DNA of 43,345 nucleotides, from NCBI GenBank assembly GCA_016184145.1, contig JACPDF010000027.1, forward strand, positions 1-43,345, written 5' to 3'. The DNA is from Candidatus Woesearchaeota archaeon. GTDB taxonomy: Archaea > Nanobdellota > Nanobdellia > Woesearchaeales > GW2011-AR4. The notes below the pieces were generated by a model. The model searched no databases, was not told the DNA's origin, and worked only from the letters and a program-made list of their open reading frames with translations. This document shows, in pieces, positions 9,383 to 36,072 of this stretch. How positions within the stretch are numbered: position 1 is the stretch's first letter; each line of letters starts with the position of its first letter. The translations under genes and the position numbers were made by a program.

Positions 9383-9526
9383 TAGACCACCTTGTTTAAT
9401 AAACTGAAAATGCTTTTATTATATTAAATATATAAATGTTTCTATTGAAATTACTATTCTGTAAGGCTAAATACTTTTCAGGTTAATTTATATGTTTGAA
9501 TCAATAAGGCACGATTTGATATGCTG

Positions 9527-9799
9527 GAAAATTCCGATTGCGCACATTCATTACTTTAGCCTGGAACAAGCAATCGGAATTTTCGGCACACTTAAAAATC
9601 TACAATGCAGATTTTTGGTGTCCCAGAAACGCTTTGCGTTTCTCAGGATGCTCAAAAACACGCCCCGCACTTTAGTGCGGGGTTGTTTTTGACATTTTTC
9701 TTTCCAAAACCAGCAGAAAGCAGAGCTTTCTAGGTATTTGGAATTTCCGAGAAATTTTCCAAAACCAGTGGAAACAAAGTTTCTAGGTTTCGAAAATTT
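9527..9799. repeat. Cluster of consecutive inverted repeats/hairpins
   Basis: 14-bp IR 9527-9540/9571-9584; AAAAATCT/AGATTTTT 9594-9616; AGAAACGC-TTT-GCGTTTCT 9625-9643; CAAAAAC..CCCCGCACT..AGTGCGGGG..GTTTTTG 9653-9691; 9702-9743; 9752-9799. Confidence 0.85.
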
Positions 9800-9853
9800 G
9801 CAAAGCTAAATTTTCCGCAACCTTTTTAAACAAGGATAAACTTCAATTTTTTC

Positions 9854-10150: not shown

Positions 10151-10491
10151 CAACACAGATATTATCAGAAACTCCAATAAATGCTTACCAGCTTAAGGAA
10201 GAGCTGGCAAAGATAAAAAAAAGAGACAAGGAGCTTAATTTCAGGGCGCAAAAAACAGAGGAGCATCTCGCACTGACAGCAGACCATAAAAATGCCCAAG
10301 AGCTTTTCGACAAGATCAACAAGCTCAACATACCCAGGCTAAGGGAGCAGCAAATCCACAAGATAATAGACATAATGCCAACAACGGTAAAAGACCTTAA
10401 AATAGTGCTGCAGGGCTACACAGTAAATATCAGCGCTGAAAACATGAAGAAGATTGTTGATACCATAAATAATTTTATTGGGAAGAAGTAA
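10147..10491 (+). CDS. rpoF: RNA polymerase Rpb4/RpoF subunit
   Basis: Follows L21e as in other archaea; NINKLNIPRLREQQIHKIIDIMPTTVKDLKIVLQGYTVNIS-like C-terminus. Confidence 0.85.
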   Translation: MTTQILSETPINAYQLKEELAKIKKRDKELNFRAQKTEEHLALTADHKNAQELFDKINKLNIPRLREQQIHKIIDIMPTTVKDLKIVLQGYTVNISAENMKKIVDTINNFIGKK

Positions 10492-10612
10492 GAGTTCTTA
10501 TGTTTTATTATTGATATTTATTACTGAAAATTAAAAATGTCAAAAACCACCTTCTAGGAGTATTCATAGGGGAAAATTCAAAATAATGTACTGGTTTTTG
10601 TGTGAATTGTGA

Positions 10613-10665
10613 GCGGTTCGCTCCGCTCACCGCATTTCACTGCTCGGAAAATCTAAGATTTTCCG
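10613..10665. repeat. Two adjacent intergenic hairpins
   Basis: GTGAGCGG-TTCGCT-CCGCTCAC and CGGAAAATCT-A-AGATTTTCCG. Confidence 0.75.
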
Positions 10666-10701
10666 ACATATTTATAAACAAGTAATCCAAAGTTATGTAA
10701 A

Positions 10702-11661
10702 ATGAGGGTGGGCATAGAAAAGAGGTACATAGATAGCTATAAGAATATAGCGAGAGAAGTGAACAATATAGTAAAGGGCAGCAAAAAGGCGCTTAAGAAG
10801 GAAGCGTACAGGAAAGCCCTGGAAAGCAGGAACATAAGCGTAGAGAATAAGAAGAAAAAGCTGGCGAAAGCTCTTCATGAGCTTATACTGCATACATTTT
10901 CCATAGACATAAGGAAGATAAAAAACAGCAAAAAAGCCTTGGAAAGCGTAAAAGGATATATTGCGCTGATAAGGGAAATAATACATAAGATAAAATCCCT
11001 TAATAATTACCTGGAAGAAATCTTTTTGGCAGAGCTCGGCATTGCCAGCAGGGAGCCATTGATATTAAAAGCGCTTAAGGCAAAAAAGCCGGAAAGGTTT
11101 TTGCAGTCAAAAAGAGGTCTGCCAAAGGATTACATAAGCAAGATAGAGCATACAGTTTACAAGCTGATGCAGGAAATCGTGATTTTTGACGAGAAGCTGC
11201 TTGAAGGCTATGTAATCAAGGAAGCCACTATAATTGGGAAGGAAAAGGTGGAAATAAAAGACTTGGAAAACCTGCTAAGGACAGAAAGCGAGCTTTTGGA
11301 TTTGTTAGAGGCAAAGATGCCGCCGCAATCAAAGATAAAAGCAAAGCTTTTCGGCAAGGAAATATTCAACAAATGGATTCCAATGGTTTTTGCGCTATTA
11401 GCAGGGCTTGAAGCTGAATACAGGAAAGAAGCGTTGATTTTTTTAAAAGTCAAGAAAAACACGCGCTTAAGGAATAAAATTGAAGATAAGATAAAGCATA
11501 TCGTTGACGAAAAGGAAAAAATACTTAAAATAAAAGAGCAAAGGGCATTATCAATGAAGAGCTTTGGAAAGATAAGCGATGAATACAGGAAGGTATTTCA
11601 TGAATATATTAATGCAGCAAGGAAGGTATTTCATGAATATATTAATGCAGCAAACTTATGA
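10702..11661 (+). CDS. Hypothetical Lys-rich helical protein
   Basis: Long ORF with archaeal TATA upstream, sits inside the rpoF-DUF655 block. Confidence 0.75.
   Translation: MRVGIEKRYIDSYKNIAREVNNIVKGSKKALKKEAYRKALESRNISVENKKKKLAKALHELILHTFSIDIRKIKNSKKALESVKGYIALIREIIHKIKSLNNYLEEIFLAELGIASREPLILKALKAKKPERFLQSKRGLPKDYISKIEHTVYKLMQEIVIFDEKLLEGYVIKEATIIGKEKVEIKDLENLLRTESELLDLLEAKMPPQSKIKAKLFGKEIFNKWIPMVFALLAGLEAEYRKEALIFLKVKKNTRLRNKIEDKIKHIVDEKEKILKIKEQRALSMKSFGKISDEYRKVFHEYINAARKVFHEYINAANL
11587..11652 (+). repeat. Exact 33-bp tandem duplication at the 3' end of the preceding CDS
   Basis: AGGAAGGTATTTCATGAATATATTAATGCAGCA x2, gives RKVFHEYINAA repeat. Confidence 0.95.
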
Positions 11662-11733
11662 GATGTCAGGAGTCAAAGATTCCCGAGCATAATTAAAAGC
11701 CAGCAATTGAGGTGCTGGAAATAATTACATCCA

Positions 11734-12318
11734 ATGCAGATAGTGGTTTTTGAGACAATGGAAAACGCAAAAGAAGAAAACGTAATAGTACTAGACTTTT
11801 TGCCTAATGGGTACCCTTTTGATGACAGGCCCATGTATATGAAGACCCCTATAGCTCAGGCTCTGGGAAAAGAGCATTTTGTCCTGCTGGAACTGGTGCC
11901 AAAGAAAGGCGTGCATTTGCAGCCTTTTGAGGAAGTATACATAGGCGAAGGGAAAAGGGACAAGGTGCACCATATAGTCGGAAAGCTTGCAATGTCAAAA
12001 TTAACCAGGACTGCCAAATCTGAATTGCAGTTTGCGGTGAAGGATATAGTAAAGAAAAACGAGAAAAAGTTTGTTGACTTTTTCAATAGTGCAATGCCCT
12101 TAAGCACAAGAATGCACCAGATAGAACTGCTTCCAGGAGTTGGCAAGAAGCATATGTGGGAAATAATCAATGCCCGCGATGAGAAGCCATTCGAGAGCCT
12201 TGAAGACATAAAGAAGCGCGTTAAATTGATGCCCGATCCCGAGAAAGTCGTAATTCGCAGGATTCTTCAAGAGCTTGAAGGGAATGAGAAGCACAGACTG
12301 TTTGTTGATGTTATGTAG
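11734..12318 (+). CDS. DUF655 protein
   Basis: LLPGVGKKHMWEIINARDEKPFESLEDIKKRV HhH; conserved position after L21e/RpoF. Confidence 0.85.
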   Translation: MQIVVFETMENAKEENVIVLDFLPNGYPFDDRPMYMKTPIAQALGKEHFVLLELVPKKGVHLQPFEEVYIGEGKRDKVHHIVGKLAMSKLTRTAKSELQFAVKDIVKKNEKKFVDFFNSAMPLSTRMHQIELLPGVGKKHMWEIINARDEKPFESLEDIKKRVKLMPDPEKVVIRRILQELEGNEKHRLFVDVM

Positions 12319-35413: not shown

Positions 35414-36072
35414 TTTTTACCTTTATAGCGGCCTCTGTTTTCCACAATTTTTACTCTTTTCAGCACTTCTTTTCCGTCTTTGGCATTTTTCTCATATTCC
35501 TGCAAAGCGGCAGTATAGCATTTCTCCCATATCTTGTAATGCTTCGATTCCAAGGCTTCTTTCAATAAATGCAAATCAACAGCTTTATCTTCCAATTTAT
35601 GGGAAAAAAAACTAAGGCCGAAGTCTATGAAATAAATTTTATTATTTCTATCCAATATCATATTGGAAGTTGTCAAGTCGCCATGAATTATATTTTCATT
35701 ATGAAGGATTGCGACTTTTTCCCCAATATCTCTGCTTAATTTAACATAATCACTTTTCTCAAGGGCGTCTTTCAGCAATTTTCCATTAATATTCTCGATT
35801 TCCAAATTCTCTTTTTCATCGTTATTGAGCAACTTAGGCGCCGGAAAATCTATTGCCTCCAACTTCTGCAAAACCTTTGCTTCCCTTTTTGTCCTGAATT
35901 TTCTTAATTTGCCGTCTATTTCCTTAATCCTATAATTTTTTTTGAATCTGTTTTTCAGTACACTAGAAAATCCTTTGGATTTTCTGTGTCCCGAAAATCT
36001 TTGATTTTCGTGGATTTTTCCATCTATTAAGAATATTTTTGATTCTGCGCCTTGAGCGATTAGCTTTTTCAT
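35410..36072 (-). CDS. bud32: Bud32/PRPK Ser/Thr kinase with an 18-aa N-lobe insert
   Basis: MKKLIAQGAESKIFLIDGK...; NIIHGDLTTSNMIL; YFIDFGLS; start MKKL preferred. Confidence 0.9.
   Translation of the reverse strand: MKKLIAQGAESKIFLIDGKIHENQRFSGHRKSKGFSSVLKNRFKKNYRIKEIDGKLRKFRTKREAKVLQKLEAIDFPAPKLLNNDEKENLEIENINGKLLKDALEKSDYVKLSRDIGEKVAILHNENIIHGDLTTSNMILDRNNKIYFIDFGLSFFSHKLEDKAVDLHLLKEALESKHYKIWEKCYTAALQEYEKNAKDGKEVLKRVKIVENRGRYKGKK
35959..36013 (-). repeat. In-frame palindromic element (two hairpins) inside bud32
   Basis: CGAAAATC-AAA-GATTTTCG GG ACAC-AGAAAATCC-AAA-GGATTTTCT-A-GTGT on the coding strand. Confidence 0.8.

Follow-up and report, generated by a model that had tools for sequence, protein, structure and literature searches.

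The window, the whole stretch of 43,345 nucleotides analysed here, is contig C25 of a host genome of 1.016 Mb in 38 contigs. In the spacer between sepF and rpl21e, two adjoining hairpin insertions, element A and array B, lie within positions 9522–9830, and both sit between divergent promoters (Table 1). The DNA fold of 9515–9830 has a z of −10.4 relative to shuffles, and RNA folds are strong on both strands (z about −9). In particular, block A is ordered as arm1, GGCACAC-hpY-GTGTCCC-hpX-CAGGATGCTC, arm2, and GACA, and represents a long form in which CAC-hpY-GTGTCCC-hpX-AGGA is set between GAGCA and TGCTC. The orthologous spacer of a genome of the same genus (G001, locus L193) has the same sepF and rpl21e promoters and reads ..CTTCCAAAAACAATGCGAAACCTTTTTAAACAAGG, with the hairpins absent; blocks A and B are both insertions.

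An earlier note on this DNA had described hairpins at 9591–9799 as members of the same palindromic family. All of the hairpins that it quoted are present at this locus as given, and the feature is larger, with arm1 beginning at 9527 and arm2 ending at 9690. The assignment to one family holds for the architecture only: A (TGTC..GACA, target TTTTRAYA) and B (AACC near TATA boxes) differ in ends and targets.

Table 1. Features of the sepF–rpl21e spacer and related features (positions in the window)
Feature	Position	Strand	Basis or remark
sepF	start 9382	minus	SepF by Pfam
Left flank and inferred target TTTGATA, fits TTTTRAYA	9515..9521	+	consensus from 47 relatives
Element A, long form, 173 bp, right end TTTTTGACA	9522..9694	+	second copy elsewhere
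arm1, stem GAAAATTCCGATTGC/GCAATCGGAATTTTC	9527..9584	+	fold
hpY AAAAATCT..AGATTTTT (9594-9616) with clamp ACAC (9588-9591) / GTGT (9618-9621)	9588..9621	+	
hpX AGAAACGC-TTT-GCGTTTCT	9625..9643	+	
TGCTC junction, one half of GAGCATGCTC, the centre of the short form	9649..9653	+	
arm2 AAAAACACGCCCCGCAC-TTTA-GTGCGGGGTTGTTTTT	9654..9690	+	
Right-end tetranucleotide GACA; mimics target RAYA, complementary to TGTC	9691..9694	+	
Array B, hairpins 9708-9735, 9740-9760, 9763-9789, 9792-9815, ending CGCAACC	9703..9822	+	absent in same-genus relative L193
rpl21e TATA box TTTTTAAA, abuts array B directly	9823..9830	+	conserved in relatives
rpl21e	start 9854	plus	L21e by Pfam
Second A-type element, TGTC-arm1-GAGCA-(GTGA..TCAC module)-arm2-GACA	10538..10668	-	left flank TTTATAAATA; R1 E 0.08, weak by score
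Two-hairpin module in frame in bud32, peptide ENQRFSGHRKSKGFSS	35958..36010	-	Bud32

Array B contains the plus-strand units AACCAG..AGGT at 9708–9735 and AACCAG..AGGTT at 9763–9789, and two of its four hairpins have AACC/GGT clamps. Filled and empty sites of the array-B type were found in relatives. Specifically, the filled site of G015, CAACGAAACA[CAGCGG..AAAAGC]TTTTTAAA, corresponds to the empty site CAACGAAACATTTTTAAA in G013 and G020, while the filled site of G014, GACAGAAACC[TATCG..GATACC]TTTTTATAA, corresponds to the empty site GACAGAAACCTTTTTATAA in G012, where the right end is again similar to the left flank; by locus, the pairs are L196 versus L194/L195/L198 and L201 versus L205/L208. 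In several cases, units resembling those of array B are found close to a TATA box or the start of a gene, and array B would be a sister system of element A, with the target AACC beside TATA boxes.

A second copy of element A, at G000:C2:9659-9838, is 93% identical overall and 99% identical over the last 115 bp, and its flanks differ; partial copies are located at C36 and C30. Adjacent perfect-hairpin pairs number 22 in 414 kb of the host genome (the window and further stretches) versus 0 in one Markov shuffle; the genome-wide census combines model searches with these 414 kb. Since perfect hairpins have no excess in G012 (65 versus 73 shuffled), the dense hairpin arrays are a trait of the host genome and are not general to carriers.

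The second A-type element of the window is placed between a gene ending at 10491 and an ORF starting at 10702, and has a nested palindrome, GTGA..CCGCTCAC..TCAC, at its centre. Downstream of rpl21e, a 319-aa ORF without Pfam match contains a perfect 33-bp tandem duplication (11587–11652; repeated peptide (R)KVFHEYINAA) and, at its end, a degenerate A-like copy on the plus strand, TGTCAGGAGTCAAAGATTCCCGAGCA..TTTTTGAGACA (11656–11755; R1 E 0.026).

Family architecture, target rule and exact insertion

A degenerate pattern over the centre of element A matched at least 112 stretches in the species collection. Among the matches listed, 55 are Woesearchaeota/Nanoarchaeota-type MAGs by count of titles, and most others look like background; the bacterial matches were rejected as family members because they lack the arms. 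From the archaeal stretches we took 47 distinct two-arm elements of the form TGTC-arm1-GAGCATGCTC-arm2-GACA, the shortest of which spans about 52 bp (L107). A single unit of the family is a hairpin whose two feet carry TGTC and GAGCA, respectively. In the common mobile form, two such units are joined as an inverted pair, TGTC-arm1-GAGCA/TGCTC-arm2-GACA, and extra modules made of hairpins are nested within the arms or at the centre. The TGTC, GAGCATGCTC, AAAAA, and GACA columns are partly fixed by copy selection, and the independent evidence comes from the consensus pattern of the flanks and from those stem columns that vary.

In the arm1-first orientation, the left flank has the consensus TTTTRAYA, with A at −1 in 45/47 elements, A at −3 in 45/47, and T-rich sequence upstream. 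The right flanks of the 47 elements have no consensus. The right end of the element itself, TTTTTGACA, fits the left-flank consensus.

A filled and an empty site are available for a PIN-domain gene (PF13470). In G019 the gene contains an element, and excising exactly TGTC..GACA restores the open frame; in G012 the orthologous gene has no element, reads GTTGAT/AAGTTGAG, and is 88% identical across the junction. This pair, the one two-arm filled/empty pair aligned base by base, reveals an exact insertion with no target duplication. Module D (TATACTCAC-GGACAA..TTGTCC-GTTCGTAATA) provides evidence of a second kind, the nested use of a similar site: at some loci an A element begins directly after GTTCGTAATA, while at others unrelated DNA stands there. 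A nested test with family C (GCGATA/TGGCAAG) revealed filled copies only and no empty site.

Covariation, distribution and insertions inside genes

In an alignment of 28 elements, pairing holds in 99.6% of cells, both sides have changed in 47 cells (15.4 shuffled), and the covariation score is 0.216 (0.075 shuffled; 0/500); relatedness inflates these figures, and a one-column partner shift destroys the signal. The earlier note had allowed that the covariation might vanish as more copies were aligned, and it persists in these 28. The variable pairs of alignment A1 include a single G-U cell, and arm pairs 6–9 over the 47 elements comprise 302 Watson-Crick, 14 G-T, and 38 other pairs. Since the varying pairs are almost all Watson-Crick and G-U or G-T pairs are scarce, stems and clamps covary in the manner of DNA palindromes. 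A concerted change of the outer pairs, as claimed in the earlier note, is borne out by the clustered hairpins of the host genome, 28/72 of which have a clamp of at least 4 bp, with about 15 different sequences, compared with a mean of 7.1 and a maximum of 16 for re-dealt 3′ flanks; isolated hairpins have no clamp excess (16 versus 14.8).

The family is widespread among relatives. Matches to element A by blastn occur in 36/59 related genomes, and a search with covariance model R1, a check that had been proposed for further copies, found matches in 41/59 related Woesearchaeota genomes at E ≤ 0.01, with up to 49 matches per genome, both strands counted. Across the phylum, 59/279 genomes have matches at E ≤ 1e-4, nearly all of them in the same order and five more in the same class, while the best match on 411 kb of mostly bacterial control DNA reaches only E 0.07. 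A viral origin was considered and rejected: the pattern gave 11 matches in viral contigs, which is chance-like. Many copies, covarying stems, exact filled/empty sites, and near-identical copies at unrelated loci support the earlier view of a structured mobile element rather than decaying sequence.

A survey of 414 kb of the host genome, window included, revealed hairpin insertions within genes in addition to the bud32 module. In triosephosphate isomerase, an in-frame module of about 18–21 residues, STKIKDFRDTENPKDFPV, is absent from the two best-matching solved TIMs; in CarA, an in-frame insert of about 105 residues, with a full A element read through, lies between halves that align with human CPS1; and in enolase, a hairpin module forms a C-terminal extension. 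In-frame peptides from hairpin insertions include ENQRFS.. and KIKDFRDTENPKDF. CarA has no insert in several relatives, and G006 has a different insert of the same module. Insertions staying open in frame would be tolerated inside genes, as is known to happen with RPEs of Rickettsia and with certain REPs (PMC3733652, PMC6006769).

Mechanism and relation to known systems

We consider that the region carries, with a probability of roughly two in three, non-autonomous, REP/REPIN-like mobile palindromes, which belong to a Woesearchaeota family and move by an HUH/Y1-type ssDNA mechanism. Such a mechanism is suggested because element A has visible parts of the logic of IS200/IS605, whose transposases insert 3′ of a short target that is kept as the left flank, without duplication, and use guide sequences at the hairpin feet to read the target and the last tetranucleotide of the element (PMC5934647, PMC6006769). 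Specifically, an HUH/Y1-type (IS200/IS605-like) ssDNA transposase, acting in trans, would recognise the folded arms and would cut 3′ of RAYA in the left flank and 3′ of GACA in the element; the excised single-stranded circle would then be inserted 3′ of a new RAYA. The proposed guide is TGTC, which stands in guide position at the foot of arm1, the one arm to which a guide is assigned; its sequence is the complement of GACA and, allowing for wobble, of most of RAYA. Arrays and nesting would be explained because each insertion ends in GACA and would thereby recreate the target.

Y1 genes (PF01797) are present in 27/59 related genomes. TGTC..GACA ends are absent from all Y1_Tnp loci examined from the 59 genomes, and none of the loci examined is flanked by elements as a unit. 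Copy number has no relation to PF01797 (Spearman −0.12 within the family, p 0.49), and G028 and G031, which are among the most copy-rich genomes, have no Y1 match (MAGs 87% and 81% complete). Known Y1 TnpA elements were rejected as the source, one type having an AAATGAC left flank, others having TCATT-like ends, and none having TGTC..GACA. An autonomous version was sought as an ORF lying among LE, centre, and RE in every locus retrieved (up to 3 kb), which gave nested hairpins only and no gene. In addition, TGTC abuts the target directly, whereas in IS608 the guide is spaced from it. The elements may have outlived an enzyme now lost, or may be moved by an enzyme missing from the incomplete MAGs or by another enzyme class. 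A more speculative proposal, which we regard as conceivable but doubtful, is a guide-programmed ssDNA insertion system whose enzyme is not a recognisable Y1 TnpA, in which every hairpin unit would have a clamp of its own, the covarying clamps (ACAC/GTGT, ATAC/GTAT, ATGC/GCAT, AACC/GGTT, and others) would record evolving guide/target pairs, and in which one trans-acting enzyme would serve many families, build self-nesting arrays, and diversify proteins in frame.

Exact insertion without duplication, and the likeness of left flank and right end, could also result from a site-specific recombinase of the tyrosine or serine class, or from an integron-like enzyme, using folded single-strand (attC-like) sites, and attC sites, like these elements, conserve structure while stem sequence varies. 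We consider this unlikely, however, as RAYA in the left flank and GACA at the right end are similar and not identical, whereas recombinase cores must match, and no cassettes or attC boxes were noticed. Structured or cis-regulatory RNAs (a small RNA, a UTR element, or a terminator) kept by transcript selection, a reading that the earlier note had left beside the mobile one, would fit the strong folds on both strands, the compensatory stem changes, the terminator-like T5 at the end of the arm2 hairpin, and the array-B-like units near TATA boxes or gene starts. This reading is quite improbable: both window insertions are missing in the same-genus relative and lie between divergent promoters, copies lie in frame in coding sequences, the same element occurs in many unrelated contexts, the varying pairs include very few G-T or G-U pairs, and the whole window has no Rfam match at gathering score.

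Conventional MITEs, moved by a DDE transposase through TGTC/GACA terminal inverted repeats, would account for elements that are small, dispersed, and non-coding and have inverted TGTC..GACA ends; with a TIR of just 4 bp, a flank consensus on the left side only, and no duplicated target site in the filled/empty pair aligned base by base, they are highly improbable. Without any dedicated enzyme, template switching during replication and gene conversion, together with duplication now and then, would be expected to yield near-perfect palindromic stems with few G-T pairs, and would accord with the failure to find a cognate enzyme. As a full account it is scarcely credible, since the common 5′ target rule, the constant junctions (TGTC, GAGCATGCTC, GACA), and the exact ends in unrelated genomes need site-specific cutting; template switching may nonetheless be the reason that stems stay perfect.

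The reading as palindromic DNA moved by an HUH/Y1-type mechanism can be set against known systems. Element A shares with IS200/IS605 derivatives (TnpA Y1, e.g., IS608 and ISDra2) subterminal hairpins, an insertion that is exact, falls 3′ of a short target in the left flank, and duplicates nothing (PMC5934647, PMC6006769), and a right-end tetranucleotide that resembles the target; its hairpin-foot tetranucleotide occupies the position of a guide and may act as one. It differs from them in its target (TTTTRAYA, not TTAC or TTGAT), in consisting of two back-to-back arms without a gene, in having a proposed guide that abuts the target, and in having no TnpA with its ends among the loci examined from 59 genomes. 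With REP/BIME/REPIN and their RAYT (TnpA-REP), it has in common hairpins that are short and tagged, form inverted doublets as well as clusters and mosaics, and are dispersed and mostly intergenic; unlike them, it has an archaeal host, a TGTC/GAGCA tag (partly fixed by copy selection) in place of GTAG (GTRG), and no flanking RAYT at the Y1 loci examined. A survey of complete genomes found in Archaea only IS-type subclass 1.1 TnpA-Y1 and no TnpA-REP classes (PMC6006769). The CGTC-tagged palindromes, including Rickettsia RPE-4 and RPE-6, are likewise dimers with an xGTC tag at one end, in-frame gene insertion, and no dedicated transposase known, and they are listed in bacterial phyla only (PMC3733652). 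Element A differs from these in having TGTC rather than CGTC, no CCA tail, and unrelated stems. Streptococcus BOX and Neisseria dRS3/NEMIS are also modular, hairpin-forming, intergenic, and mobile-like, and differ in sequences, hosts, and ends. One of these, dRS3, is CGTC-1 (PMC3733652).

By analogy, element A would work like an IS200/IS605 derivative, have the organisation of REP/BIME/REPIN, and settle inside genes as RPEs do; because the tag and cognate-transposase tests fail, we do not assign it to IS200/IS605, REP, or RPE. REP-type mobile palindromes and their single-strand transposases have been described in bacteria. A search of the open-access literature found no report of such palindromes for Woesearchaeota, and the hairpin family is apparently unreported so far. 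A large archaeal counterpart of REPs that offers an exact empty site and a clear target rule, along with in-frame inserts in core enzymes of reduced genomes, would provide an independent system for how palindromes move, and would allow one to ask whether the enzyme resembles the mover of the CGTC/RPE repeats, which lack a transposase, and whether proteins gain new sequence from hairpin insertions. The covarying clamps would give a natural record of guide/target reprogramming.

Several other arrangements were observed at the loci examined. Module D, which is likewise structured and dispersed, occurs in several Woesearchaeota genomes (L041, L104, L114, L159, L236, L279, L283-L285, and L311), where it often precedes element A or CAAAGAAAACC..GGTTTTCGAGTGCTC. 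At L071, L276, L278, and L260, outer palindromes, GCGAGGCG..GCGATA and TGGCAAGAAAGCG..CGCCTCGC, enclose A-type or other hairpin modules. At L015 (G008), a long inverted repeat with internal palindromes, CTTCATCCAAAAA..TTTTTGGATGAAG, lies beside the element and is perhaps another mobile family. An IS200-like TnpA with a long N-terminus (..HKIESKIATVRTSHHCKYNINYHIIWIPKYRKPIL..), the left flank AAATGAC, and no visible right-end hairpin after the stop is present at L042, L043, L045, L046, L066, and L068. At L061 (G013), two copies of GAGAGAAAAATGCGGGGCATTTTTCTAAGCATAAATATCCGAAAACGC..GATATATTTATA are located beside a Y1 transposase gene, a candidate REPtron-like arrangement.
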